Shown here: positions 4,063-53,862 of the stretch, piece by piece
Numbering within the stretch: position 1 is the stretch's first letter
Layout of the letters: every line of letters begins with the position of its first letter
NCBI GenBank assembly: GCA_030696455.1
Contig: JAUYSH010000091.1
Location: 1-64,000, forward strand
Length of the DNA: 64,000 bases
Reading direction: 5' to 3'
Source: Elusimicrobiota bacterium
GTDB lineage: Bacteria > Elusimicrobiota > Elusimicrobia > UBA1565 > UBA9628
Notes under the pieces: model-generated
Told to the model about the DNA's origin: nothing
Database searches by the model: none
Seen by the model: only the letters and a program-made list of their open reading frames with translations
Translations under genes and position numbers: made by a program

Positions 4063-4320
4063 GCGGGCCGGGGAGCCCGCTGCTTCGATCAGAGGATGGG
4101 CCCCAGCGGAAGCAGCCGCAGCAGCAGCCGCCTCTTGCCCGGCGGCGCTCCGGCGTCGGCCTCTCCGGAGCCCAGGCTTAAGCCCTTAAAGTCCGGCACC
4201 GGACTTCGGACCCAGAACGCCTGGGCCGACTGCCCGGCGAGTCTTTTCCCCATGGGCCCACGCAGTACAGCAACGCCTCTGCCATAATCCGGATATGTCG
4301 TTATTGATTTGGATCAATAA
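4063..4320. other. Intergenic leader of the giant bat-fusion gene with two palindromes
   Basis: 258 bp without a credible gene. It contains the palindrome AAGTCCGG-CA-CCGGACTT (4189-4206). Directly against the ATG of the next gene lies the inverted repeat TTATTGAT-TTGG-ATCAATAA (4301-4320). The first could be a hairpin ending the two-component unit, although no T-run follows. The second is AT-rich in a GC-rich context and touches the start codon, so it could be an operator or a start-occluding RNA hairpin. No Shine-Dalgarno sequence is visible before 4321. Confidence 0.5.
4301..4320 (+). promoter_or_regulatory. AT-rich inverted repeat abutting the start codon
   Basis: Perfect 8-bp arms TTATTGAT and ATCAATAA with a 4-nt TTGG loop end exactly at the base before ATG 4321. 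If transcribed, the hairpin would sit immediately before the initiating codon. If not transcribed, it is well placed as a repressor operator over the promoter. Confidence 0.5.
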
Positions 4321-7300
4321 ATGAGGCGCTTCCCCCTGCGCCGCCTGCTCGGAGCCGTGGTTTCGTTCGCCATCGTGGCGGGCGCGCCCGGCTCTCAGGC
4401 CTATCACGCCGCGGCGCAAACCGCCGCGGGTCGCCCCGCCAAGGGGGCGCCCGCGCCCGTGGCGACCGGCGCCGCCTGGTCCGCGCTGTCCGCGCCCGTC
4501 CCGTCGCTGACGCCTTCGCTGCTCTCGGTCTCGCCGTCCTTGCTCGCCGCCCCCGCCGCCGCTCCCGAGGTCCGCGCCGTCCCCGCGGCCGCCCTCGCGG
4601 TCCCCGTGCGTCCCGCCGCCGCCGTTTCCGCGGCCGTGCCGGTGGGTCCTGCCAAGATCGTGCCGACGCGCGCGCCGCTGCGCGTCGCGGCCAAGATCCC
4701 GCCCGCCGTCTCCGCCCCGTCCGCTTTGATACGTTCGCTTCCCGCCGCGTCCGCTCCTGAGACGCCCGACGCCGCGGCCCGGATGTTCGACGGTTCGGTC
4801 GCCAAGGCCGAGGCTCCCGCGGCGGTCGCCGCTCCCCGCGCGGGCGGCTTCGGCCGCTCCCTTAAGAGAGGCCTGGCCATCCTCGCGCTCTCGGTCGGCA
4901 TGCTCGCCTCCCAGCAGCAGGCGAGTGCCCAGTCCGTCCCGCTCCCCCATCCTCCGGCCGCCGCTCAGGCCCAGCCCGCCGCCGCCGTCCGCGTGGCCCT
5001 TCCCCGTCCGATCGAGGCCGCCGCCTCCGTCGACCGCCAGGGCGTGACCGTCGGCGAGCGCGTCCAGCTTTCCCTCACCTTGCGCAACACCTCGGACAAG
5101 CCGGTCACGGTGCACAACCTGCGCTCCTCGCTCCAGGAGGCCCTGCCCGCCGACCTCGAGCTCCAGGGCAAGGGCGCCGAGGCCCCCTTGGTCCTGGCGC
5201 CCGGCGAGAGCAAGACGGTCGTCTACGAGGCGATCCCGTTCGGGTCCGGCACGCTTACCTTGGATGGGGGCATCGCCGTCGTCGCCGTCGGCGAGACCGC
5301 CGTCTATCCCGAGGGCATCGAGATCGTGATGCCCAAGACCGAGCTCAAGGTCGCCACCGTGCTCACGCCGGACTGGAAGGAGAAGGGCCTGCGCGACATC
5401 GTCGGCGTCAAGCGCGCCGACGGCCCGGACTGGATGTGGCTCGCGGCGATCCCGCTGGGCATATTGCTTTTCGTCGGCGTGCACCGCCTCGTCGCGGCGC
5501 GCCGCCTGTACCCGAAGCTCGATGACTCGCGCCTCTCGCTCGTCACCGTGACCGAGACCGAACTCGAGCGCCTCAAGGCCGAGTCTGACGACCTCGACGC
5601 CGCTTCCTTCTATGCCCGCTACCAGGAGCTCCTGACCGGCTTCATGGTCGATTTCGCCGGCATGCCCAAGGCGGCGCGCGACGCGCGCACGCTCGAGCGC
5701 GACCTGCGCAAGTCTTTCTACGACGCCGGACAGGCCGGCGTGGCGTCGCGTCTCGCCGCCCAGGCGGAGGCCGCCCGCTTCGCCGGCTCCGAGACGGACG
5801 CCTCCGAGCGCGCGCGCATGATCGAGCGCCTCAAGGCCCTCGTCGAGAGCGTCGCGGGCAAGGCGGGCAAGCCCAAGGAAAGCTCGGCCGGCGTGCTCGG
5901 CATGCTGGCACTCTTGCCCGGCGCCGCGGGCCTGACCTTCGGCAGCCCCTACGTCCTCCTTCTGCTGATCCCGCTCGCGGCGTACGCCTTCTGGTCGTGG
6001 CGCTCCGGCGCCAAGTCCGCGCGCTTCGCCGTCTCCTCCTCGGCGCAGACGCCCGCCAGGCGCACCTTGCGCGAGAAGCTGGCCGGTCTTCCTAAGATAC
6101 TGCGCATGGCCGCCATCGGCCTGATCGTCGTGGCCCTCGCCCGGCCCATGATCGGCACCGAGCGCACCGAGACCTTCATCCCCTCGACGGACACCATGGT
6201 CTCCATCGACCTGTCCGGCTCGATGAGCGGCGACAAGCTCCAGGGCGTGCGCGACGCGGTGCGCGGCTACGTCGAGGAGCAGCGCCGCGGCACCGAGAAC
6301 CGCGTGGGCATGGTCACCTTCTCCGACGAGTCCTACCTGGACATGAAGCTGACGACGGACTACGACGCCCTGATCGCGCATCTCAAGGAGCTGGAGACGA
6401 CGGGCTCCACCGCGATCGGCAAGTCGATGCTGACCGCGATCGCCCATTTCCTCGAGCTCAGCGCCCTCGAGCTCGACGGCAAGAAGGACCCGCGCGCCGC
6501 CGAGGTCCAGCGCCTGCTCAAGGACTCCGGCCTGCCCGCCGCACTCGCCTACGCCAAGCAGCACCCCGACCTGCTCAAGACCATCTTGCAGCCGGAACGC
6601 GCGAAGATAGTCGTTTTATTCACCGACGGCGACTCCAACTCCGGTATTGATCCTCAGGACGCCGCTTCTATAGCGGCCTCGCTGGGCATCAAGATCTACG
6701 GCGTGGGCATCGCCGGGCCGAACGAGAGCTTCAACGAGGCGACCTTGCGCGGCGTGGCGGAGAAGACGGGGGCGAAGTTCTTCCGCGCCGGCGACGCGGG
6801 CGCGATGCGCGAGGTGCTGCTCGAGATCTCCCGCCTCGAGAAGAGCCCGGCCAAGATCGTCTCCGCGGTCTCGGTCAAGGACTACACGAGCCTGCTCGCC
6901 CTGCTCGCCTTCCTGCTCATCGGCGCCGAGCTGACGCTCGCGAACACGCGCCTGCGCACCCTCTACGGCCTGGCGTTCGTGATGGCCCTCAATCAGGCGC
7001 CCCTCGACGTTTCCTCCTTCCAGGCCGCGCCCGCCGCCGCCGTGACCGCGCAGGTCTCGGCGCCGAAGTCTTTGACCTCCGCCGTGCCCGCCGAGGTCAT
7101 CGAGGGCAACAAGCTCTACAACCAGGGACGCTTCGCCGAGGCGCTCAAGAAGTACGCCGAGGCCGTCGAGCGCCACCCCGACGTGCCCGAGATCTACTTC
7201 AACATGGCCGACGCCTACCTGCGCCTGGGCCAGAACGAGAAGGCCGACGCGGCCTGGGCCAAGTACCTGTCTTTGACGCCCGACGCGAAGAAGCAGTCCC

Positions 7301-10300
7301 AGACCCTTTTCAACCTCGCCAACTCCGCCCTCATGGCCGAGGACGCCGAGAAGGCCGTGGAGCTATACAAGGAAGCCCTGCGCCGCGACGCGACCAACAT
7401 GGACGCGAAGTGGAACCTCGAGGCGCTCAAGCAGCAGCAGAAGGAACAGGATCAGAAGGAAAGCAAGGATTCCAAGAAGGGCAAGCCCGGCAAGCAGAAA
7501 GGAAAGCCCGGCGACGGCAAACCCGGCGAGGGCAAACCGGGCGACGGTAACCCGGGCGACGGAAAACCGGGTGATGGAAAGCCCGGCGACGGAAAACCCG
7601 GCGACGGCAAGCCCGGCGACGGCAAGCCCAAGGACGCCAAGGAAGGCGCCGACAAGCTCGGCGAGGAACTCGGCAAGCAGGAAGGCGGCGAGAAGGACGC
7701 CGCGCGCAGGGGCATGACCCGCAAGGGCTCCGGCGTGTGGGGCATCGGCGCTTTGCCGCTCGCCTTCGCCGGCCAGGGCCTCGTCTTCTCGTCCTCGATG
7801 TTCCTGTGGGCCGTCGGCATCGGCCTGCCCATCCTCGTTCTCGCCGTCGCCTGGGGCATCAAAAAGCGCATGGACGCGGCCAAGCGCCTGAGCCCCGGCA
7901 CCGCGCCCAAGACCTTCCGCTCCTGGTGGGGGGCGCGCCGCTTCCTCGGCAAGTCCGCGCTCGCCTTGACGGCCGCGGGCCTGATCGGCCTCGCCGCCGG
8001 CGACCCCCGCGGCGGCATGGTCGACGAGCGCGTCAACTTCGGCGGCAAGGACATCGTCGTCACCGTCGACGGCTCCCACAGCATGGTGTACGCCGAGGAC
8101 GGGCGCATGGCGCGCACGCAGAAGGAGCTCAACGAGTTCATCACCCGCCTGCAGGGCACCGACCGGGTCGGCCTCGTCGTCTTCGCGGGGAAATCGCGAA
8201 CGGCCTCGCCGATCTCCATCGACTACGGAAACTTCGAGTTCAAGATCAACCGCCTCGAGGTCGAGTCCCGCGGCATCGGCGAGGGCTCGAACCTCGCGGC
8301 CGCGATCAAGTACTCAGCCAACCACTTCGAGACCGCCAAGAAGCTCGGCGACCGCCAGCGCATCCTGATCATCATCTCCGACGGCGACGTGCCCGACAGC
8401 GAGATCGCGGCCGCCATCGCCTCCGCGGCCGAGCACAACGTCACCGTCTACGCCATCGGCGTCGGCGACCCCGCCGGCACCAAGATCCTCATGCCCACCG
8501 CCGACGGCGCCGGCACCGAGTACTTGATCGACACCAAGACCGGAGCGCCCGCCATCACGCGCCTCAATGAGGCGCCCTTGAGACAGCTCGCCGAGCGCAC
8601 CGGCGGCGCCTTCTTCCGCGCCGGCGAGAAGACCTCGATCGACGACGTGCTCAGCGAAGTCTCCCGCCTCGAGAAGGGCCAGAAGGGCGACCTGATCAAG
8701 TCCCCGAGCCCGGTCGGCGTGTACCTGCTCTGGCCCGCCTTGCTGATGCTGCTCCTCGACCTGATCCTCCCCGGCCGTTCCCTCCTGCGGCGCGGGGCCT
8801 CGACGGCCAAGCCCGAGGAGAAGGCCAAGAAGTCCGGCCCCGGCGCCGCCGGCCTCCTCGGCGCCGCCCTCATCCCGCTCGGGGCCTGGCCCCAGATCCT
8901 GCCTTTCGCGGCACTCGCCACGGTCGTCGCCGCCTACATCGCCGCCGACTCCTGGAGCGGCGGCAAGATCACGCGCAAGGTGCGCGAGTGGTGGCAGAGC
9001 CGCCGCGGCTTCATCGAGAACGGCGTCTCCTCCGACCTGATCCACCTTTATGACCTCCGCGAAGTCGACGAGCGCCGCCTGGCTTCGTTCGTCAAAGGCT
9101 GGCGCGACGCGAAGGAGAATATTCGCGAAGCGATGATCTCGTCCGCTTCCGCCGACGACGCTCTTTGGCGCGAGAAGCTCACCGCCGCGTATCTGACCGG
9201 CGGCTCCCCCGAGCTGCTCGAGAAGGTCCTCACCGCGCTGCGCCGCGCCGCCCGCCAAAAGCTCGAGCCGCTGGCTCCCATCACGACGCGCATGTCCCTG
9301 CGCAAAGCTCAGATCTCGTGGATGGCCCACTCCGACGCCGAGGTCCGCCTCGCCGCCCTGACGGCCGTCGCGGCCGGTCAATCGGTCGCGTTCGAGGCGC
9401 CCAAGCCCATCGCTCAGGCCCCCGGCCTGTTCGCCCGCGTCAAGCGCGGCGCCTCCGTCGCCGTGCTCGCCGTGATGATCGCGGTCACCGGCGTCTCCTC
9501 GGTCGGCACGCTGAACTTCCGCGTCGAGCAGCGCGAGGCGGCCGAGGTCGCCCTCAAGCTGTTCTATGCCGAGGACCTGTTCGTCTTCTCCGACCGCTAC
9601 GTCGACGAGCGCATCGCCCGCGAGGTGATCCCGGCGCTCAAGCGCTGGCACGAGTCGCCCAAGACCGCGGGCCCGGACTTCGAGCGCGCCTTGACCATAC
9701 TCCGGGAGTCGCCCGACCCCAAGGCCGACAACATCCTGGTCACCATCTTCCGCCACTCCGGCATCCTGCCCCTGACCCAGCAGGCGGAGAACACCTTGCT
9801 GCGCTCGCTCATCGAGCGCGAGAGCGACGCGCTGTGGGGCTCGATGGAGGCCCTGATCGCGCAGTCGCGCACCGACGCCGCCTCCGCGCAGACGCTCGTC
9901 AAACTCGTCATCCTCGGCGTCGAGGTCGGCGACGAGAAGACCTTGGCCCAGCTTTTCCGCGTGCTCAAGAGCCCCAACAAGCAAGTGCAGCAGCAGGCCG
10001 CGGGCGTCCTCTACACCCATCTCTCCCGCGACGCCGGCGCCAAGTTCTACGAGGGCCTCTCCGGCGTGCAGGCCAAGCACGCCGCCGACCCGATGCTGCA
10101 GATGTGGACGACGAGCTTCGCCCTGCGCCGCCTGACCGAGCCCGCCGCCGCCGAGGCCGACCTGGTCAAGGCCAAGGGCTTCCTCGATAAGGCCCTCGTC
10201 AACGCGCGCGCCATCGACGCCGCGCGCGTGGAGATCTACAAGCAGACGCCGCCCGACCAGGAGGTCTCGGCCCCGCCCTCCATGGTCGCCATGCTCGCCA

Positions 10301-13300
10301 ACCTCGCCTCCTCGATGCAGGGCGACGGCGGCGCGCCCGCTCCGCTGGCCGGCGCCGCCCGCTACCTCGTGACCAAGGCCGCGACCGAGCTCATCAAGGA
10401 CGCCGAGAAGACGATCCCCGGCCTGCACGAGCGCCTCGTCAAGGACGGCGTCGTTCTGCCCGACACCCAGAGCTCCTACGGCGGCAGCGGCTACGACGAT
10501 TACTACGACGACCACGGCCACGGCGGCTACTACGGCCGCGGCGGCCGCTACGGCGGCACGTCCACGACCCAGAACTACCGCGAGGTTTACAAGCTCGCCC
10601 ACCTGCGCGCCCTGCAGGCGGCCATCGACGAGCTGGGCGGCCCGTCGGCCAAGACCCCGACCAAGGAGAACTTCGCTTTGCGCGAGCTGATGGAGCGCGC
10701 CGGCATGATCATCGAGCAGGGCCTCGAGGCGGGCGCCAAGTCCGGGATGATGGAGGGCGGCACCGCCCCCGAGGCCGCCGCCGAGCAGCTCTACTCCACC
10801 CTCAAGGCCGGCGACGGGACCTTCGCCGGCCACTCCTTCCTGCGCGCCTTGCGCGAGGCCGGCCTGGCCCCCGCCTCCGGCGACCTGTCGAGCCAGCTCG
10901 CCTACCCCGAGTCGCTCGACGCCGCCCAGATGAAGTCGCTGCGCGACCTGCTCGTCACCGTCGCCCGCTCCGGCAACGGCTGGGACGCCGAAGGCAAGCC
11001 GCGCGCGCTGACCTGGAGCGAGAAGCTTTATCTTTCCGGCGCCATCGAGACCGTCCAAGCCGCGCGCCTCAAGAACTTCCCCGACGCGGAGAAGCTCGCC
11101 GCCGCCGACCTCGAGCCCCTGGCCTTGGCCGCGATGTCGCGCGAGCTGACGGCCAAACCTTCCGCCGAGCTCGCTCTCGCCCTCGAGGCGCGCCTGTTCG
11201 CCCGCGCCGCCAAGGGCCCCGTCGACGTCGCCGACGCCTCGGCCCTCCTGGCGCAGGTCTTCACCGCTCTCAAGGGCTCTTCTCACGAGGCCGCCGCCCT
11301 CGACGCGCTGGCCGCGGCCCTCAAGGCCCCCAACGGCGCCGCGTTCAAGTCCGCGGCGCTCACGCTCGCCGTCGAGGGCCTGCACAAGCTCGCCGAGCGC
11401 GCCGAGAACGCGACCCCCGGCCTCAAGGCCAAGCACGCCGCGGCCGGCGTGCGCGAGAGCGAGAGCGCCTGGCGCCCCGACGTCAAGCTGCGCCACTTCC
11501 GCGTCGTCGCCGAGAGCGTCACCGGCGCCGATGCCGCAGCACTCGCCCGCTACACCAACCTCGCCGCCTTGGCCGGCGCCCCCCAGGGTGACTCCGCGGG
11601 CGAGCTGGCCGCCGACGAGGTCAACGTGGTCCTGCTCGCCGGCTACCGCCTCTTCCCCGGCTCGGAGTTCAACGAGGCCCTGCGCGCCGCCGGCCTCATG
11701 AAGGGCGACGGCAACACCCTCTCCGACTACCAGGGCAGCTACGACCGCAAGCAGCTCGAGGCGATCCGCGCCTGGCTCGCCGGCGTCGCGAAGGCCAACG
11801 CCGGCCTGGGCAAGGACGCCCGCGAGCTCAAGCTGTCCGAGAAGGTCTACCTCGCCAACGCCCTCGACCGCGTCGACGCCATACTGGCCGCCCGCTTCGG
11901 CGTCCCCGCCGCCCCCGTCGCCGCCGACGTGCTGGGCTCGGTGAGCCGCCCCGGCCAGGAACCCCTCGCTCTCGCCCGCCTCTCGCTCGCGCTCGACAAG
12001 CGCAAGGGCGACGCCGCCTACGCGCTCAAGGCCCAGGACGCGCTGTTCGCCATCTTGGCCGCCCGCCCCGGCGACGCCGAAGACGCCAAGGTCGTGCTCG
12101 AGGCCATCCGCACCGCGGTCAAGGGCACCTCCTCCGAGCAGGCCCAGCTCTCCGCCATGGTCAAAGCGCTCAAGTCCACTCATGGCAAGGAGCTGCTCGA
12201 GGCCGTCGCCGAGGACGCCGAATCCGCCGCCCAGTCCTTGGCCGAGGACGCCGAGAAGCTCTTCCCCGCTCTCAACAAGGCCCTCATCGACTCCGGCGCG
12301 CGCGAGGACAACGACTCGTGGCGCGGCGAGTTCAAGCTGCGCCACTACCGCGAGCTGCGCGCCGCCATCAACGCCGAGGCCGCCAAGGTCAAGAAGCCGA
12401 CCGCCGCCCAAAGCGCCGCCGCCGCGCGGGCCGCGCGCCTGCTGCCCCTGCTCGAGGCCGCGGCCGTCACCGCGGGCGTGCTCCCCGGCGACACCCCCGG
12501 CGAGATCGCCGCCGAGCTCATCAACGAGCCCCTGCAGAAGGGCTACCAGGTCTTCCCCGGCGTCGTGTTCAACGAGAAGCTCCGTTCGCTCGGCGTGATG
12601 GACCCCGGCACCGGCAATGGTCTCACCGATCATCGCCAGACCTACACTCAAGCCGACCTCGTCAAGCTGCGCGGCTTCCTCTCCGCCACCTTGTCCTCCG
12701 GCCAGGGCTGGGAAAGCGACGGCACGACGCGCCGGGCCTTGACCGACGCCGAGAAGAAAGCCGTCGAGGAAGCCCTCGCCGCCACCGACCGCGCCTTGGC
12801 CGCCTACGCCAAGCCCGCCAAGACCTTCGCCTTCGCCCCGCTCGCTCTGGCGGCCTTGCCCGCTCTGGGCCTGGCCCCGATCCTCCTCTTCGCCGTCCTC
12901 GGTCTGGGTGCCGCCTACATCGTCTGGAAGCTGTGGCCCTCGATCACGGGTACCGAAGAGACCGAGGCAGCCGTGCGCGAGTCCATCCCCGGCTCCATCA
13001 TCGCCCGCCACCGCCGCATCGAGCTCGTCGCCCGCCGCATGGCCACCGCCGTCAACGGCGGCAATTTCCGCTCGCGCTTCATCGGCCCCGGCGGCACGGA
13101 CTTCGCCGAGGCCCGCCCGTACCAGGGCGAGGACATGCGCGAGATCGACTGGAAGACCTCCGCCAAGAAAGACGAGCTCTACGCCAAAAAGTTCGAGCTC
13201 GAGCGCGACATGCCCCTGATGCTCGTCGTGGACATCAGCCGCTCCGGCAGCTTCGGCACCCGCGGCACGACCAAGCGCGAGGCGATCGAGAATTCCGCCG

Positions 13301-13869
13301 CCGTCCTGGCGCTCGCCGCCGCGCACTCCAACGTGCGCGTCGGCCTCGTCCTCGTCTCAGACCGCGTCGAGCAGGTCATCCCCGCGCGCGGCGGCTCGCG
13401 CCACGCGATGATGATCGTCGACGCGATCCTCAAAGCCGAGCCCACGGGCAAGGCCACCGATCTGAAGCCCGGCCTGGAGGCCGCGGGCAAGCTGCTCGGC
13501 TCGCGCTCCATGGTGGCCGTCCTCTCCGATTTCATCGCGCCCGACTTCAAGGACGCCTTGGGCTCGATCGCCTCGCGCCACGACGTGCGCGCCATCCGCG
13601 TGACCGACCCCGCCGAGCTGGCCCCTCTGCCCGACGTGGGGCTCCTGCCGGTCGTGGACGCCGAGACGGGTGAGACCCGCATGCTCGACACGTCCTCGCG
13701 CGCGGGCCGCGCCGAGAGCGCCGCCGCCATCAACCGGCGCGAAGAAGCCGTCGAGGCCGCGTTCGGGGCCTCGCGCCTCAAGCCCATACAGATTTCCACC
13801 GAGGGAGACCCGCTCGAGTCGCTCGAGCTCGCCTTCCATCCCAAAGCCAAGCAGACGTTCACGCCTTAA
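4321..13869 (+). CDS. Giant Bat-system fusion protein (BatD/BatA/TPR/BatB/repeats/DUF58)
   Basis: 3182 residues in one open frame. In order: signal peptide (1-33); Ala/Pro-rich region with M-F-D-G-S at 155-159; a second signal-like helix (about 183-200); BatD-like beta domain (237-350) with a membrane helix near 371-395; BatA-like membrane segments and VWA domain with MIDAS DLSGS (Asp630); membrane helices near 855-890; TPRs (922-1045); GKPGD tandem repeats (about 1056-1107); a membrane segment; BatB-like VWA with DGSHS (Asp1250); membrane helices near 1463, 1511 and 1705; helical repeats; a Gly/Tyr/Asp-rich patch (about 2051-2082); three related modules (about 2021-2256, 2347-2526, 2628-2827); a membrane segment (2837-2874); and DUF58 (2886-3182) with DFAEARPYQGEDMREIDW and DISRS. 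These are normally separate genes (batD, batA, batC, batB, DUF58) beside moxR. MoxR follows 8 bp downstream. Family assignments come from motif recognition. Likely role: a MoxR-regulated envelope VWA complex. Confidence 0.85.
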   Translation: MRRFPLRRLLGAVVSFAIVAGAPGSQAYHAAAQTAAGRPAKGAPAPVATGAAWSALSAPVPSLTPSLLSVSPSLLAAPAAAPEVRAVPAAALAVPVRPAAAVSAAVPVGPAKIVPTRAPLRVAAKIPPAVSAPSALIRSLPAASAPETPDAAARMFDGSVAKAEAPAAVAAPRAGGFGRSLKRGLAILALSVGMLASQQQASAQSVPLPHPPAAAQAQPAAAVRVALPRPIEAAASVDRQGVTVGERVQLSLTLRNTSDKPVTVHNLRSSLQEALPADLELQGKGAEAPLVLAPGESKTVVYEAIPFGSGTLTLDGGIAVVAVGETAVYPEGIEIVMPKTELKVATVLTPDWKEKGLRDIVGVKRADGPDWMWLAAIPLGILLFVGVHRLVAARRLYPKLDDSRLSLVTVTETELERLKAESDDLDAASFYARYQELLTGFMVDFAGMPKAARDARTLERDLRKSFYDAGQAGVASRLAAQAEAARFAGSETDASERARMIERLKALVESVAGKAGKPKESSAGVLGMLALLPGAAGLTFGSPYVLLLLIPLAAYAFWSWRSGAKSARFAVSSSAQTPARRTLREKLAGLPKILRMAAIGLIVVALARPMIGTERTETFIPSTDTMVSIDLSGSMSGDKLQGVRDAVRGYVEEQRRGTENRVGMVTFSDESYLDMKLTTDYDALIAHLKELETTGSTAIGKSMLTAIAHFLELSALELDGKKDPRAAEVQRLLKDSGLPAALAYAKQHPDLLKTILQPERAKIVVLFTDGDSNSGIDPQDAASIAASLGIKIYGVGIAGPNESFNEATLRGVAEKTGAKFFRAGDAGAMREVLLEISRLEKSPAKIVSAVSVKDYTSLLALLAFLLIGAELTLANTRLRTLYGLAFVMALNQAPLDVSSFQAAPAAAVTAQVSAPKSLTSAVPAEVIEGNKLYNQGRFAEALKKYAEAVERHPDVPEIYFNMADAYLRLGQNEKADAAWAKYLSLTPDAKKQSQTLFNLANSALMAEDAEKAVELYKEALRRDATNMDAKWNLEALKQQQKEQDQKESKDSKKGKPGKQKGKPGDGKPGEGKPGDGNPGDGKPGDGKPGDGKPGDGKPGDGKPKDAKEGADKLGEELGKQEGGEKDAARRGMTRKGSGVWGIGALPLAFAGQGLVFSSSMFLWAVGIGLPILVLAVAWGIKKRMDAAKRLSPGTAPKTFRSWWGARRFLGKSALALTAAGLIGLAAGDPRGGMVDERVNFGGKDIVVTVDGSHSMVYAEDGRMARTQKELNEFITRLQGTDRVGLVVFAGKSRTASPISIDYGNFEFKINRLEVESRGIGEGSNLAAAIKYSANHFETAKKLGDRQRILIIISDGDVPDSEIAAAIASAAEHNVTVYAIGVGDPAGTKILMPTADGAGTEYLIDTKTGAPAITRLNEAPLRQLAERTGGAFFRAGEKTSIDDVLSEVSRLEKGQKGDLIKSPSPVGVYLLWPALLMLLLDLILPGRSLLRRGASTAKPEEKAKKSGPGAAGLLGAALIPLGAWPQILPFAALATVVAAYIAADSWSGGKITRKVREWWQSRRGFIENGVSSDLIHLYDLREVDERRLASFVKGWRDAKENIREAMISSASADDALWREKLTAAYLTGGSPELLEKVLTALRRAARQKLEPLAPITTRMSLRKAQISWMAHSDAEVRLAALTAVAAGQSVAFEAPKPIAQAPGLFARVKRGASVAVLAVMIAVTGVSSVGTLNFRVEQREAAEVALKLFYAEDLFVFSDRYVDERIAREVIPALKRWHESPKTAGPDFERALTILRESPDPKADNILVTIFRHSGILPLTQQAENTLLRSLIERESDALWGSMEALIAQSRTDAASAQTLVKLVILGVEVGDEKTLAQLFRVLKSPNKQVQQQAAGVLYTHLSRDAGAKFYEGLSGVQAKHAADPMLQMWTTSFALRRLTEPAAAEADLVKAKGFLDKALVNARAIDAARVEIYKQTPPDQEVSAPPSMVAMLANLASSMQGDGGAPAPLAGAARYLVTKAATELIKDAEKTIPGLHERLVKDGVVLPDTQSSYGGSGYDDYYDDHGHGGYYGRGGRYGGTSTTQNYREVYKLAHLRALQAAIDELGGPSAKTPTKENFALRELMERAGMIIEQGLEAGAKSGMMEGGTAPEAAAEQLYSTLKAGDGTFAGHSFLRALREAGLAPASGDLSSQLAYPESLDAAQMKSLRDLLVTVARSGNGWDAEGKPRALTWSEKLYLSGAIETVQAARLKNFPDAEKLAAADLEPLALAAMSRELTAKPSAELALALEARLFARAAKGPVDVADASALLAQVFTALKGSSHEAAALDALAAALKAPNGAAFKSAALTLAVEGLHKLAERAENATPGLKAKHAAAGVRESESAWRPDVKLRHFRVVAESVTGADAAALARYTNLAALAGAPQGDSAGELAADEVNVVLLAGYRLFPGSEFNEALRAAGLMKGDGNTLSDYQGSYDRKQLEAIRAWLAGVAKANAGLGKDARELKLSEKVYLANALDRVDAILAARFGVPAAPVAADVLGSVSRPGQEPLALARLSLALDKRKGDAAYALKAQDALFAILAARPGDAEDAKVVLEAIRTAVKGTSSEQAQLSAMVKALKSTHGKELLEAVAEDAESAAQSLAEDAEKLFPALNKALIDSGAREDNDSWRGEFKLRHYRELRAAINAEAAKVKKPTAAQSAAAARAARLLPLLEAAAVTAGVLPGDTPGEIAAELINEPLQKGYQVFPGVVFNEKLRSLGVMDPGTGNGLTDHRQTYTQADLVKLRGFLSATLSSGQGWESDGTTRRALTDAEKKAVEEALAATDRALAAYAKPAKTFAFAPLALAALPALGLAPILLFAVLGLGAAYIVWKLWPSITGTEETEAAVRESIPGSIIARHRRIELVARRMATAVNGGNFRSRFIGPGGTDFAEARPYQGEDMREIDWKTSAKKDELYAKKFELERDMPLMLVVDISRSGSFGTRGTTKREAIENSAAVLALAAAHSNVRVGLVLVSDRVEQVIPARGGSRHAMMIVDAILKAEPTGKATDLKPGLEAAGKLLGSRSMVAVLSDFIAPDFKDALGSIASRHDVRAIRVTDPAELAPLPDVGLLPVVDAETGETRMLDTSSRAGRAESAAAINRREEAVEAAFGASRLKPIQISTEGDPLESLELAFHPKAKQTFTP
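7486..7632 (+). repeat. In-gene 15-bp tandem repeat encoding G-K-P-G-D/E
   Basis: About nine imperfect copies of a 15-bp unit (consensus GGCAAGCCCGGCGAC, third positions varying) encode a Gly-Lys-Pro-Gly-Asp linker inside the giant Bat protein, between its TPR region and the BatB-like part. Synonymous variation between copies argues for selection on the peptide. The linker is probably flexible and slippage-prone in length. Confidence 0.85.
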
Positions 13870-13877: not shown

Positions 13878-15371
<1,494 letters not shown>

Positions 15372-15374
15372 GCG

Positions 15375-16658
15375 ATGACGGTCGTATTCGCGCTGGCGGC
15401 CGCTTTCGCGGCCGCCGGCGCGGCGTCTTCTCAGGTCGTCGTCAGGCTGCCGCCTTCCGCTCCTCGGGTTTCTCCGCCGGCGCTCATGGCGCCGCTACTT
15501 TCGGCGCCGGCCGTCTCCGCGCCCCCGTCTTTGCCGGGGATCCGTCTTCTGGGGGTTCCCGGGCCGGGCGTGACTCCGGCGCACATCGAGGCGGCCAAGG
15601 CGCTCGCGGTGCGCGCGGGCAAGCCGGTCGTCGTGCACGGCAGCCGGCAAACGGGCTTCAGCTATCACACGGGCCTTCCCTTCTCGGCCTCCTCCGACCT
15701 CAACCTGGGGGTGATCGGGGCTTGGGACGGGCGTCGGCCGATCGCCTCCGTCGAGGACGCGGTGGGGCGGGGTTATCTCGTGGCGGCTCCGGCGGCGGCG
15801 CGTCTGCCGGGCGCGCTGGGGCTTCTTCAGGCGCAGGCCCGGCCTTGGCGCACGGATGAGCAGCTGTCCCGTCTCGCGGCGGCGCCGCGCACTTCAGGAG
15901 AAAGCTTTCGCTTCGCCGTGATCGGCGACGCCGAGCCGGGTCGATTCTGGATCGCGCGGAAGCTTTTCAACACGCCGGGCGTTTTCTGGAAGCTGCTGGC
16001 GAGGGCGGACAGGTCCAAGCCGGATTTCATCCTCCAGCTGGGGGATATGGTGAGCCGGGGGACGGTGGCGAAATTCTGGGCGTTCTTCCGGGGGCTGAGT
16101 TCCGCGGGGCCGGAGACTCCGTATTTGACCGTCATCGGCAATCATGACCGGCACAAGCCGCATGGGGTCACGAATGATCGGGTGTATCGGGCGGCGTTCG
16201 GGGGGACGGACTATCACTTCGATCGCGCGGGGCGGCGCTTCATCGTGCTGGACTCGAGCGCGGGGCGGGTGACGCGGGCTCAGCTCTCGTGGCTGGCGGG
16301 GATCCTTGACCCTGCGGTGCCGACAGTCGTGTTCACGCACATACCGCCGGCGCCGCTCTCGGAGTGGACAGATTGGGGGCGCATCAAGGGGGCGGGGGGA
16401 TTCCGGGAGGGCAGCGAGGCCTTCATGGGGCTGATGGCCGCGAACAAGGTTCAGCGCGTGTATATGGGGCACATTCATGGTCTGGGCGTTCTCGAGCGAG
16501 GGGGCGTCAAATACGTGCTGACGGGTGGGGGCGGCTCGCCTCTATTCCCGGGGCCGGTCAAGAAGCGCCTGCATCACTGGCTCTCGGTCGAAGCGGGGCC
16601 GGAGGGGCTCGTTGAGACCGTTCACGCCGCCGACGGGTCGTCGTTCCTCCTGCGCTAG
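15375..16658 (+). CDS. Exported calcineurin-like metallophosphoesterase with NTase-like N-terminal region
   Basis: 427 residues beginning with a signal peptide (cleavage near A-S-S-Q, residue 20). Residues about 170-410 are a metallophosphoesterase with metal-binding motifs GDAE, GDMV, GNHD, THIP and GHIHG in order, so it likely hydrolyses phosphoesters outside the cytoplasm. Residues about 75-150 contain VHGSRQTG followed by SSDLNLGVIG, which resembles the G-S...D-x-D signature of nucleotidyltransferase folds with the second Asp replaced by Asn. It follows moxR by 3 bp, so it is probably the third gene of the bat-moxR operon. Substrate unknown. Confidence 0.85.
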   Translation: MTVVFALAAAFAAAGAASSQVVVRLPPSAPRVSPPALMAPLLSAPAVSAPPSLPGIRLLGVPGPGVTPAHIEAAKALAVRAGKPVVVHGSRQTGFSYHTGLPFSASSDLNLGVIGAWDGRRPIASVEDAVGRGYLVAAPAAARLPGALGLLQAQARPWRTDEQLSRLAAAPRTSGESFRFAVIGDAEPGRFWIARKLFNTPGVFWKLLARADRSKPDFILQLGDMVSRGTVAKFWAFFRGLSSAGPETPYLTVIGNHDRHKPHGVTNDRVYRAAFGGTDYHFDRAGRRFIVLDSSAGRVTRAQLSWLAGILDPAVPTVVFTHIPPAPLSEWTDWGRIKGAGGFREGSEAFMGLMAANKVQRVYMGHIHGLGVLERGGVKYVLTGGGGSPLFPGPVKKRLHHWLSVEAGPEGLVETVHAADGSSFLLR

Positions 16659-20836: not shown

Positions 20837-23344
20837 TCAGCGCTGCGGCGCGCGCGTCGGCTTGGCGTCGGCGGTCAGCACGATCTCGACGGGCTCATCG
20901 CCGCGCAGCACCGTGACCGTCGTCTTCTGCCCCGGTATCATCTTGGAGAGGACCGCGGCGACGTGCCCCGCCGCCTCCTGCCTGCCCTCGGCGATCGGCT
21001 CGCCCCCGACGGCGATGATCAGGTCCCCGCGCAGCAGGCCCGCCTTCTCCGCCGCCGAGCCGTGGCGCACGTACTCGATCTCGAGCCCCGCCTCGGGAGC
21101 CAGCGGGTCGGAGAGATTGGCGATGATGCCCATGGAGGCCGTGGCGATGTTGCCCGTCTGAGCGTACTGCGCCATCACGCGGGCGACCTCGGGAGCCATG
21201 ATGGAGAAGCCCAGGCCGTCGGAGCCCCCGCTCATGGTGAAGATCTGCGTGTTGACGCCGATGACCTCGCCGCGCGAGTTGAAGAGCGGACCGCCGGAGT
21301 TGCCCGGGTTGATCGAGGCGTCGGTCTGCATGTGCTTGACGTACATGTTCCCGCGCCCGTCCATGCCGCTGACCACGCCGGCGGTGACGGTGAAGGGAAG
21401 CCCGCGCGGATAGCCCGTCGCGGTCACTTCTTCACCTTCGCGCGGAGCCTGCGAGGCGAGCTTGACGAAGGGCCAGGGCTTGCCGTCGCCGCGCGGGGCC
21501 AGCTGCACGATGGCGAGGTCCTTGTCGTGGTTGACGGCGAGGACCTTGGCCTTGATCATGCTTGGAGCGCCCGGGACGCGGGCCTCGACGAACTCGCCGG
21601 GCTTGCGCGTGCCGACGACGTGGGCGTTGGTGATGAAGACGCCGTCGGGGGTCAGGATGAAGCCGGAGCCGGTGGCCATGCCCTGTCCCATGCGCACGAG
21701 CACGTTGACCACGGAGGGCTTGACCCGGGCGACCATGGCCTCGCGCGACTCGACGGGAGCGGTCTCGCCCGTGAGGGAGGCGATGGCGTCGGCGACCTCG
21801 GGCGGCAGGGCCTGCTGGGCGTGCTGGACCTGGGTGATGGCGGCGCGCGCGGCGGCTTCGCTCGAGGGGTTGGTCGCCGGGGCGTTGAAGAGGGAGAAGG
21901 TCGAGGCGACGATCATCACAGTCGCGAGGGCCTTGGCGCCGCTCATGCGGAAGGCGCGCTCCTTGCGGCGGGAGAGGTAGCCGTAGAGCAAGGAGGCGAC
22001 ACCCAGCAGCCCCGCGATGATGCCGAAGGCCGCGCCGGCGAAGGGGGAGACGCTCAGCGCGATGAGGAAGCCGCCGATCGCGACGAGGTTGAAGAGGAGG
22101 TGGGCCACGAAAGGGGCGGCCAGGCTGCGGCTCTTGTAGGCGGTGTGGGCGAGGAAGAGCCCGAGGATGACGTTGAGGGCCAGCACGAAGGGGGAGAAGC
22201 CCCAGGCGGCGAAGTGGGCCATCGCGAAGCTCATGGCGGAGATGGAGGCGGCGATGGGGAAGGCGAGGCGGGAGAGCCATTCGCCGGCGCGGAGGACGCG
22301 CTTGGTCGCGCGGACGACGCCGGCCGCGTCGGGAAGCTCCTCGATCATGGAGGAGATCTTGCGCGTGAGGGGCTTGAGGGCGGCGAGGACGAGGAAGGTG
22401 CCGCCGAAGCCGAGGAGGCGGAAGGTGAGCTCTTCCATGCCGACGGCGAAAGGGAGCTGGATACCGAGGAAGGCGGCGGGGGACTGGGCCAGGCCCTCGA
22501 CGATCTCGTTGGGGCCGTACTTGGTGAGCAAAGCGACGCGGCCGAAGGCGCTCAGGGCGGTGTCGGACATGTACTGCGGCCAGGGGAAGACGTTGAGCAG
22601 AGGGCGCAAGGTGACCTCGAGGATGGCGCCGAGGCCGACGAGGTTGAGGCCCTGCTTGAGGCCGTAGCCGAGGCGCTGGCGGAAGGTCATCGGCGTAGCG
22701 AGCGGGCCGCCGAACTCGTCGATGGAGGCGGCGCGCTTGGCGGCGGAGAGGGTCTTGCGGGCCTCGTGCTGCTTGAGCAGAGAAGCCTTGAAGCCGCCCA
22801 GGCGCGAGGCGGAGACGGCGGGGCCCTCGGTCTCGTTGCGTTTCGCGGAGGCGCCGTCGAAGGCGAGGTCGGCGGCGGTCTTGGCGGATTCGGCGGAGGG
22901 GACGGCGACCGGGGCCGCGGCGGGCTTGCGGCTGAAGAGGGAGGTGACGCGCGAGATCAGGGACTTTTTCGTGGCGGGGGCGGCGGCCGCCTGAGGAGCG
23001 TCGGGGCGGAGGGGGGCGTTCTCGGAGGCGGCGGCGCGGACGGCGGCGGAGAGGGCGGCGGGCGCGACGACCGGGGCGGCGGCGGAAACGGCCGCGGGGG
23101 AGGCGATGGGGGAAGGGGCGATCGAGGGGGCGCCGAGAGTCCCGTTGAGGGAGGCGGCGCCGATCGCCAGCGACGGCGCCATCGTCATTCCTGAGGCGGA
23201 GCCGATTACGGGGGAGACCGGCATGGAGCCCGTCTGCCCGGAGGCGACGCGCACGACCTGGGCCTGGACCGCCGGGGGCACGGAGCCCATGAGGAGGGCG
23301 GCGGCGAGGAGGATGGACAGGGCGCGGCGCGGGGAGGTCATCAT
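20837..23344 (-). CDS. CPBP intramembrane protease fused to an HtrA/DegP-like serine protease with PDZ
   Basis: 835 residues from ATG 23344, chosen because a signal peptide starts there and TACACT lies 6 nt before it; the frame continues upstream without merit. Order: signal peptide; Ala/Pro-rich leader to about 150 with an F-D-G-A motif; membrane region about 220-490 carrying the CPBP (CAAX-protease/Abi) motifs EELTFR, FAMAHF and HLLFN; then a trypsin-like HtrA domain with catalytic His in FITNAHVVG, Asp in HDKDLAIVQL and Ser in PGNSGGPL; and one PDZ domain (GSAAEKAGLLRGDLIIAVGG). CPBP enzymes are intramembrane glutamic proteases; HtrA proteins degrade or sense misfolded envelope proteins. 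Both active sites look intact, so one protein may cut in the membrane and in the periplasm. Confidence 0.92.
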   Translation of the reverse strand: MMTSPRRALSILLAAALLMGSVPPAVQAQVVRVASGQTGSMPVSPVIGSASGMTMAPSLAIGAASLNGTLGAPSIAPSPIASPAAVSAAAPVVAPAALSAAVRAAASENAPLRPDAPQAAAAPATKKSLISRVTSLFSRKPAAAPVAVPSAESAKTAADLAFDGASAKRNETEGPAVSASRLGGFKASLLKQHEARKTLSAAKRAASIDEFGGPLATPMTFRQRLGYGLKQGLNLVGLGAILEVTLRPLLNVFPWPQYMSDTALSAFGRVALLTKYGPNEIVEGLAQSPAAFLGIQLPFAVGMEELTFRLLGFGGTFLVLAALKPLTRKISSMIEELPDAAGVVRATKRVLRAGEWLSRLAFPIAASISAMSFAMAHFAAWGFSPFVLALNVILGLFLAHTAYKSRSLAAPFVAHLLFNLVAIGGFLIALSVSPFAGAAFGIIAGLLGVASLLYGYLSRRKERAFRMSGAKALATVMIVASTFSLFNAPATNPSSEAAARAAITQVQHAQQALPPEVADAIASLTGETAPVESREAMVARVKPSVVNVLVRMGQGMATGSGFILTPDGVFITNAHVVGTRKPGEFVEARVPGAPSMIKAKVLAVNHDKDLAIVQLAPRGDGKPWPFVKLASQAPREGEEVTATGYPRGLPFTVTAGVVSGMDGRGNMYVKHMQTDASINPGNSGGPLFNSRGEVIGVNTQIFTMSGGSDGLGFSIMAPEVARVMAQYAQTGNIATASMGIIANLSDPLAPEAGLEIEYVRHGSAAEKAGLLRGDLIIAVGGEPIAEGRQEAAGHVAAVLSKMIPGQKTTVTVLRGDEPVEIVLTADAKPTRAPQR

Positions 23345-23350
23345 GGAAGG

Positions 23351-23356
23351 AGTGTA
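23351..23356 (-). promoter_or_regulatory. -10 element TACACT, predicted leaderless start of the CPBP-HtrA gene
   Basis: On the reverse strand TACACT ends 6 nt before the tandem ATG-ATG at 23344. There is no Shine-Dalgarno match between. Confidence 0.4.
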
Positions 23357-23477
23357 GCCCTTCCCCGTCGGGACGACGGGGGCCGGAGGTCCCAAGAAGG
23401 GGGCTTCTTTGGTCCCTCCCCGGGGGGCCCGATGGACCCCCTCGGATTTCCCCGGCTCGCATTTGAGTCTCGTGTAG

Positions 23478-23505
23478 TATAATTGGCCCATTGTCATATT
23501 GGGCC
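23478..23505 (+). promoter_or_regulatory. Consensus -10 followed by a short hairpin
   Basis: TATAAT at 23478-23483 drives the forward gene. GGCCCA (23485-23490) and TGGGCC (23500-23505) then form a 6-bp hairpin at the start of the mRNA leader, and GGGAG (23516-23520) serves the ATG at 23526. The same AT-rich core reads TATACT on the reverse strand (23476-23481), a possible second promoter for the protease gene. Confidence 0.5.
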
Positions 23506-23525
23506 TTTTGGCCCCGGGAGTCCTT

Positions 23526-24605
23526 ATGCGCCTGAAACTCGCCCTCGCCGCCCTATCCCTCCTAGTATCCGCCCAATTCGCGTCTGCTGTAGACGATGCG
23601 CCTAAAGTCGATTTTGATCAGGGAGTGGATGCCGCCGGGATCCTACAGAGGGCACGCGAAATCGCAGCAAAGCAACTCACTCCGATTCCCCGCGTCAAAC
23701 GGAAGCTGTTTAAGGCGGAAAAGAGGAATAAGGCGGTCAAAGGGCCTGGCCAATATCAGCCCGTCAGTCCGCTCATCACGGGCAGCGCAGTTTACCCGCT
23801 GGGTGTGAATCTACGGGCCGATCCGAAATACCCAGCGCTCGATCCCGCCGTCCTGAAGCCTCTCGAAACTGAATGGACGGATATCACCGCTGTCAGGAGC
23901 GATCTCCTGTCGCGGGCCTCTGGCTGGGAGGGCGAGAACGAGCAACTGTACCTCGACGGGCTGCAGTTGGATCGAGATCTTGCGGGATTGGAACGGCGCC
24001 AGGCGGATCTCAACGCCGAGATCGCTCAATATAATCAAGCCTGCACGACCCGTCCTCTTCCGCCGGATCAATATCAACAATGCGTTTCCTGGCGCGACAG
24101 CCTGACCAGGCGCATATCACAGCTTGAATCCGACATCACGCGATACAACGGACGCGTGAGCTCTTGGAATCAGCGGTCACGGGCTATTTTCGATCGGCGG
24201 GGAACCTTGGTTGGACTGATCGCCGAGTGGGAAAACCGGATTCAGAATTGGATTGAAACCGTCAAGAAAGCGATGGCGGCGCAATGCCGGCCAGTCGACA
24301 CCCTTGAATCCCGACCGCCGCAGTGGAATCTATTTACCGGAGGATTCACCAAAGAATTCGAGGTGAGGGCATTTTTCAAGTCTGAGCCTAAAGACGCTCC
24401 TCCCTGCCCCGTCGATTATCTCTGGAGTTTGGTAATACATCCCCCGGTCCCTGACGGGCCTATCGGCACGATCTCTCCCTTGACTGGTCCGAAAACCGTC
24501 TTCAAGTCAGGTAATTTTCCGGGTATCGGAACGATAGTCGTCCAGGACCGAAATTCGGGTCGCGGAACGGGCTCGACCATCAACGTGGTTCACCCTTCAA
24601 AATGA
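23526..24605 (+). CDS. Exported coiled-coil protein of unknown function
   Basis: 359 residues from ATG 23526, which has GGGAG 6 nt upstream and begins a signal peptide ending A-S-A-V-D. Residues about 110-260 are strongly heptad-like with many Leu, Glu and Arg (for example LYLDGLQLDRDLAGLERRQ), and four cysteines lie in the second half. The C-terminal 100 residues look beta-rich and end in Gly/Ser/Thr. Codon use is visibly less GC-biased than in the flanking genes, as in the next gene, with which it overlaps by 4 bp. No family recognised. Confidence 0.75.
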   Translation: MRLKLALAALSLLVSAQFASAVDDAPKVDFDQGVDAAGILQRAREIAAKQLTPIPRVKRKLFKAEKRNKAVKGPGQYQPVSPLITGSAVYPLGVNLRADPKYPALDPAVLKPLETEWTDITAVRSDLLSRASGWEGENEQLYLDGLQLDRDLAGLERRQADLNAEIAQYNQACTTRPLPPDQYQQCVSWRDSLTRRISQLESDITRYNGRVSSWNQRSRAIFDRRGTLVGLIAEWENRIQNWIETVKKAMAAQCRPVDTLESRPPQWNLFTGGFTKEFEVRAFFKSEPKDAPPCPVDYLWSLVIHPPVPDGPIGTISPLTGPKTVFKSGNFPGIGTIVVQDRNSGRGTGSTINVVHPSK

Positions 24606-53350: not shown

Positions 53351-53859
53351 AACGCCTACACATTAACGCAACAGAAGGGCCAAAGAAGCGTACTTCAAGG
53401 CAGCATAAGGTGCGCGGCGGCCGCAGGCCTGAATCCACGGCGGCCGCAGGCCGCCAAGCTCCAAGTCTGATTCAAGCGCGCGGTCGTCATAATGTCCGTC
53501 ATTCGAGCGCCCGATCCGTTGCCGTTTCGGCCTTTCGCCGTTTAACGGCAACGGCGGGGAGAATAAAAATGACGGACCTAAGGCGGGCTCCATGCTTTTC
53601 GGTCGGCTTGAAGCTAAGGGTAAGAACGGAGTAATGAGGTATACGACGACAAATTGCGGCTATTAAATAACGACCGGGTATTGGCCGCCGCGTGTTGTGC
53701 GCGGGCTTGATTGGGGGCCAAGAGGGACTATTGTAAGGCCAGAGGACCCAATCAGACCTGGGCCCAATGTCGTAGGCCTGATGGCCCTCAGGACCACGCC
53801 AAAACGACGCTATTGGCGCATAATCCCGTTAACAGATGGCCGCCGCAGGAGGACACCCC
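53351..53859. other. 509-bp intergenic region rich in hairpins and repeats
   Basis: Between the divergent POR operon and the S41 peptidase gene. Contains a 15-bp direct repeat CGGCGGCCGCAGGCC (53415-53429 and 53438-53452), a hairpin with 11-bp arms CCGTTGCCGTT/AACGGCAACGG enclosing an inner CGGC/GCCG stem (53516-53554), an inverted repeat TGATTGGG/CCCAATCA (53708-53754), and a small CCTGA/TCAGG hairpin (53777-53792). No credible ORF. A structured RNA or a long 5' leader is possible. Confidence 0.5.
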
Positions 53860-53862
53860 GTG
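53847..53862 (+). promoter_or_regulatory. Shine-Dalgarno fixing the S41 peptidase start
   Basis: AGGAGG (53847-53852) lies 7 nt before GTG 53860. This outranks the upstream ATG 53836 and the internal GTG 53881, which lack such spacing. Confidence 0.7.

Follow-up and report, generated by a model that had tools for sequence, protein, structure and literature searches.

A near-complete Bat-DUF58 fusion with a predicted alpha-solenoid, encoded next to MoxR in Elusimicrobiota

Introduction

Can the membrane half of a MoxR-Bat system be made as one polypeptide? MoxR-Bat is a stress-related machine (Bat for Bacteroides aerotolerance) that is elsewhere made as five or six separate proteins. In the 64,000-nucleotide stretch of an Elusimicrobiota draft genome analyzed here (the window), a single very long frame was read by a first-pass annotation as a whole MoxR-Bat operon fused into one protein. 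We ask whether this frame is a real gene, which Bat parts it contains, how it relates to ordinary Bat operons and how such a chain might work with its adjacent MoxR.

Results and Discussion

A single frame conserved across an order

The frame runs uninterrupted from its ATG at 4321 to its stop at 13869 (3182 codons, no internal stop), and the ATG of MoxR at 13878, with an AAGGAG ribosome site in front, lies 8 bp past that stop. The first-pass reading of a single 3182-residue frame with MoxR 8 bp downstream is thus borne out by the frame itself, by HMM matches and by 12 relatives. The same annotation had suggested looking for this architecture in related genomes; on searching 58 of these with the DUF58 part, we found end-to-end homologs in 12 other independent assemblies of the same genus, family and order, all intact frames of 2767-3420 aa, which brings the full-length fused copies to 13 with that of the window, besides several more that are cut by contig ends. 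Across the relatives' loci, phmmer aligned the entire chain, with MoxR directly 3' of it wherever the sequence was readable. Two class- and order-level relatives that at first seemed unfused (G056 and G039) proved to encode large fused frames on different contigs.

Every segment, junctions included, shows dN/dS below 1 (mostly 0.12-0.6). Two repeat segments give values near 1 against one relative (L036) and 0.4-0.6 against two others (L037 and L038), so the former are best explained by misaligned repeats. Since the frame is shared by 12 relatives and all segments show dN/dS below 1, it is not a chance frame, and these comparisons confirm at the sequence level a real, conserved gene that is neither a chimera nor a frameshift artefact. 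Normal starts at the junctions, as separate genes would have, were also checked: the candidate internal start before BatB (Met1160) was rejected, with relatives showing A, L, I or other residues there. The long antisense frame at 8314-13326(-) was likewise set aside as a high-GC shadow of the fused gene.

The solenoid part (see below) occurs in 21 of 341 Elusimicrobiota genomes, contig-cut copies included, so that about 21 carry the fusion; these fall in 10 of 100 genera, comprising one order and a single genome from another family of the same class. Searching 84,980 species genomes with this part recovered 12 loci, 11 labelled Elusimicrobia or Elusimicrobiota and one labelled only 'bacterium'; phyla outside Elusimicrobiota were covered through the solenoid part, a probe that would miss a solenoid-free whole fusion there. 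The gene is absent from a good share of its own genus, including nearly complete genomes, and is hence dispensable.

Parts of the fused protein

The features of the locus are collected in Table 1. Pfam models match the fused protein for DUF58 (E=1e-58, above the cut-off), VWA (E=3e-39, three stretches), TPR (E=1e-11) and, weakly, the BatA N-terminal domain (E=0.005), and AAA_3 matches the adjacent MoxR (E=3e-55). The Leptospira NCBIfam models of BatA, BatC and BatB give E=2e-53, 5e-20 and 7e-19, all under their curated cut-offs. The names first given by motif therefore hold for BatA, VWA, TPR/BatC, BatB and DUF58, but the name BatD is weak: the N-terminal part is a marginal match to Pfam BatD (best E=4e-5, matched in 9 of 13 relatives), and in hhalign it fits a full BatD (E=0.011) more poorly than the short gene lying between DUF58 and BatA in an ordinary operon (E=1.4e-6). 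A full BatD, with several BatD domains, is missing from the fused protein, and none was found among the genes scanned up to 16658.

Table 1. Features of the fused locus and its upstream region (window coordinates).
Feature	Position	Strand	Basis or remark
-10-like ATAAT	4284-4288	+	conserved upstream in relatives; by eye, consensus only
Perfect FNR-type box TTGATTTGGATCAA	4304-4317	+	3 bp before ATG
Fused Bat-DUF58 protein, 3182 aa	4321-13869	+	frame, relatives, selection
Signal-peptide-like start, (A/S)PG...Y.A.A↓Q	4321-4419	+	conserved in relatives
Pro/Ser/Ala-rich leader ending MFDGS	4420-4860	+	N-terminal module found genome-wide
Second signal-peptide-like segment, residues 180-205, before the BatD-like domain	4861-4935	+	similar hydrophobic segment in relatives
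Short BatD-like domain and predicted cytosolic tail	4993-5886	+	transmembrane helix 5425-5496
BatA: VWA (MIDAS DLSGS) flanked by N-terminal membrane helices and a C-terminal helix	5887-6942	+	
BatC-like TPR domain	7096-7440	+	profile matches
GKPGD low-complexity linker	7453-7650	+	15-bp tandem repeat; BatC-tail position
BatB: VWA (MIDAS DGSHS) preceded by two membrane helices and followed by a C-terminal helix	7795-8769	+	
Hydrophobic hairpin and predicted cytosolic helical domain	8830-9435	+	
Transmembrane helix and predicted periplasmic alpha-solenoid (~1,100 residues)	9457-12840	+	
Last transmembrane helix	12841-12918	+	
DUF58 domain, MIDAS DISRS	12988-13866	+	predicted cytosolic
MoxR AAA+ ATPase, 497 aa	13878-15371	+	Walker A/B intact; signal peptide 13878-13961, then leader

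The DxSxS MIDAS motifs of VWA-A (in BatA), VWA-B (in BatB) and DUF58 are largely retained in relatives, with differing letters in VWA-B among the distant ones, and the earlier description of a Bat-DUF58 fusion in which a single multi-pass chain carries three MIDAS-type domains is supported. The hydrophobic segments and their flanking charges are consistent with the positive-inside rule for a topology, drawn from hydropathy only, in which the BatD-like domain, the BatA VWA, the TPRs, the BatB VWA and the solenoid are predicted to be periplasmic, and DUF58 and two linking segments cytosolic. In Borrelia, the VWA of the BatA protein BB0173 is periplasmic by experiment (PMC5700661).

The Gly-Lys-Pro-Gly-Asp (GKPGD) linker and extra repeats had both been taken as foreign to the standard system. 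For the linker this does not hold: it occupies the place of the low-complexity tail that follows the TPRs, is poly-Q in one relative (L045) and has a counterpart rich in K, P, D and E after the TPRs of the ordinary operon. The repeats are another matter: the region between BatB and DUF58 is predicted to be an alpha-solenoid and is a genuinely new part of the fused protein, found only in this protein family. It comprises a HEAT-like part followed by three units, each about 170 residues long, that are related to one another. AlphaFold predicts almost entirely helical structures for residues 1490-2260 (mean pLDDT 79) and 2050-2880 (mean pLDDT 85). Fold searches with both models retrieved only generic alpha-solenoids, with no PDB match at E<=0.001, and PDB sequence searches with both solenoid profiles only designed alpha-repeat proteins, armadillo proteins and chance matches. 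Matches of the window protein to the HEAT/ARM families are weak, with none over a curated cut-off.

Relationship to ordinary Bat operons

The same genome also encodes an ordinary, unfused operon on another contig (C15, L056), made up of MoxR (339 aa), DUF58, BatA and BatB-TPR. Its genes are homologous to the corresponding parts of the fused locus but separate, its MoxR is without a signal peptide, it has no solenoid and its members fall in distinct clades. In a class-level relative, the operon (L062) reads MoxR, DUF58, short BatD-like, BatA, BatB, BatC, BatD, relative to which the fused locus is permuted (short BatD-like, BatA, BatC, BatB, solenoid, DUF58, MoxR). As the order of parts differs from the operons seen, the fusion is not an operon minus its stops, and with the full BatD missing too, 'whole operon' was an overstatement.

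In comparison with the MoxR-Bat operon of the Bacteroides fragilis and Leptospira type, the fused locus has homologous MoxR, DUF58, short BatD-like, BatA, BatB and BatC parts, MIDAS-bearing ones among them, but differs in presenting one chain instead of five or six proteins, in its permuted order, in a protein without full BatD, in the large new solenoid and in the MoxR signal peptide. The statement that the parts are separate genes in known Bat loci does not stand: BatB and TPR share one frame in the ordinary operon of this very genome, batB-batC is fused in Leptospira biflexa, with other fusions in Spirochaeta thermophila and Francisella (PMC3557215), and Borrelia BB0170 is a BatD+TPR+SH3 fusion (PMC5700661). 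The L. biflexa BatB-BatC and BB0170 proteins likewise hold Bat parts in one frame, but only two or three of them, without DUF58 and without a solenoid. Partial bat fusions are thus already known; what is new here is the near-complete Bat-DUF58 fusion with a solenoid, of which we found no instance in the open-license papers searched.

In phylogenetic trees, DUF58 of the fused loci forms one clade (100/98) apart from ordinary-operon DUF58, and their MoxR a clade of its own (98/96) apart from ordinary MoxR, the exceptions being long branches and G056. The recurrence of genus and family groups within the fused clade suggests mostly vertical descent with losses.

An adjacent MoxR with a signal-type start

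The MoxR of the window has about 155 additional N-terminal residues, consisting of a signal-peptide-like start and a leader. Such a signal-type start with an AxA↓Q-type end is present at about 14 loci over the genus, family and order (nearly every readable MoxR) and is unrecognizable in L046 and L055. The ordinary MoxR of the same genomes begins directly, without this segment. The low dN/dS of the signal segment (0.2-0.5) and of the leader (0.3-0.6) indicates that they are translated, and Walker A and Walker B are intact. The signal peptide, if used, would place the motor across the membrane from DUF58. Directly 3' of MoxR, in the window and in several genus members, is a metallophosphoesterase with a signal-like start (15375-16658(+)).

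A conserved FNR-type box upstream

The box in front of the fused gene fits the FNR consensus TTGAT-N4-ATCAA (PMC5398030). At the seven genus loci with a readable start it is invariant at -17, apart from a single C/T difference within the N4 spacer, while its flanks vary; the relative L045 has an FNR-type box TTGATCTAGATCAA at -116. Perfect boxes are rare, numbering five in the 4.0-Mb genome versus one for the reversed control, and the window holds one. Other boxes adjoin a succinate-dehydrogenase-cytochrome-b-like gene (named by eye), a CRP/FNR regulator and a leader-bearing protein. The regulator (L135:1550-2275(-), contig C135) is of the CRP/FNR family, with an FNR-like CxxCx5C near its N-terminus and the perfect box just upstream, and is possibly a self-regulating oxygen sensor. 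With the ATAAT at 4284, the box of the fused gene would fall just downstream of the transcription start, a position that suits repression. The sequence preceding the fused gene in loci L036-L055 repeatedly shows GGCCCA-type and ATAAT elements; in L043, L045 and L052 the ATAAT lies about 8 nt ahead of the ATG, suggesting leaderless transcripts.

Proposed mechanism and alternatives

We posit, as a probable though by no means secure reading, that the fused chain is the one-polypeptide membrane half of a MoxR-Bat system, a multi-pass MoxR adaptor that acts beside the ordinary operon under FNR-type oxygen control. The likely working principle, a MoxR AAA+ ring with a VWA/MIDAS adaptor, is that of NorQ/NorD, where one VWA adaptor is seated on a MoxR hexamer and its MIDAS grips the client (PMC9976466). 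NorD has a single VWA domain and serves cNOR, whereas the fused protein combines two VWAs with DUF58 in one multi-pass chain. By analogy, this chain would cross the inner membrane many times and serve as adaptor of the MoxR ring; its VWA/MIDAS sites would grip a client envelope protein, which MoxR might remodel through ATP hydrolysis (e.g., to assemble it or to insert a cofactor); the solenoid may be an added scaffold or client-binding platform, so that three MIDAS-type domains and a solenoid would be offered on one adaptor. The fused system would run alongside the ordinary Bat operon without replacing it, and an FNR-type oxygen regulator would control its gene, probably blocking transcription without oxygen. 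Counting against this oxygen link, expression of the Borrelia bat genes falls rather than rises in air (PMC5700661).

Evidence against a one-chain adaptor also comes from the relative G010, in whose single-contig genome the fused frame is split into several pieces, although this would fit indel errors given its 83% completeness. The split frame, together with the draft state of the window's genome (147 contigs), could suggest that separate genes were joined by sequencing error, chimeric assembly or pseudogene formation; the intact frames of 12 independent assemblies and the purifying selection refute this, loss of stops alone cannot make a fusion whose parts are ordered unlike those of the operons examined, and we give the idea practically no credence. 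Hardly better placed is the idea that the fused family split off only recently from its own genome's ordinary operon, to which all the Bat parts are homologous: fused-locus DUF58 and MoxR form their own clades spanning families, the opposite of copies nested beside those of their own genome's operon, the order is permuted and the ordinary operon is without the solenoid. The 3182-aa chain could instead be made whole and then cut into Bat proteins of ordinary size, in which case the fusion would change little. The signal-like segments within it, ahead of the BatD-like part and ahead of the TPRs, and the low-complexity linkers speak for such processing, yet the junctions displayed no conserved protease site and are themselves under purifying selection, and we regard such cutting as unlikely.

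Only slightly less likely is that an exported MoxR acts as a motor in the periplasm, on the side of the VWAs, TPRs and solenoid, with ATP somehow present there, perhaps regenerated by a leader-bearing polyphosphate kinase 2 (PPK2). Its AxA↓Q-type signal at about 14 loci, with intact Walker motifs, an AAGGAG start and selection on the segment, the lack of a signal on the ordinary MoxR of the same genomes and a leader common to an S41 peptidase, a CAAX-HtrA fusion and the PPK2 of relatives all favor this; but ATP would not be expected in the periplasm, a cytosolic location is predicted for DUF58, and the MoxR segment may remain uncleaved as an anchor or be no signal at all. The fuller picture, in which the signal-bearing MoxR works periplasmically on the giant VWA/TPR/solenoid chain of a lineage that also exports an ATP-making polyphosphate kinase, strikes us as more doubtful still.

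On the adaptor reading, a single natural chain kept over a whole order argues that the Bat parts belong together physically and bears on their complex, order and ratio; the fusion would fix their stoichiometry, as the first-pass annotation had proposed. A one-chain Bat protein is also expressible or imageable as one object, and its predicted topology assigns each part sharply to one side of the membrane. The signal peptide of MoxR renders testable the side on which MoxR meets its VWA partners, and the predicted FNR box would link the fused system to oxygen without cultivation.

A leader module shared with other proteins

The N-terminal module of the fused protein and of its MoxR recurs in this genome as a signal-peptide-like start running to AxA↓Q, followed by a Pro/Ser/Ala-rich leader (PSLSAPAL), often with (M)FDG(S/A)xA. 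We observed it in the window at 4321, 13878, 20840-23617(-) and 53833-56211(+) and at the loci L079, L081, L093, L098, L099, L105 and L136; this leader type is displayed by 8 of 339 sampled genes, a ninth match being without the leader. The proteins behind it are very different enzymes, some usually cytosolic, such as PPK2 (found by motif). PPK2, normally a cytosolic enzyme, here has a signal-peptide-like start and a leader ending RFDGA.A.PGE.VDL (L081:1018-2295(+), contig C11), and about ten relatives have the same. The window frame at 20840-23617(-) fuses a CAAX protease (Rce1-like) to an HtrA-type trypsin+PDZ protein behind the leader; this fusion and a leader-bearing S41 peptidase look extracytoplasmic. 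The leader is further found on a LOG/lysine-decarboxylase-like protein (L099:1-1944(-)) and on a 1303-aa PspA/IM30 protein (L110:7681-11589(-)).
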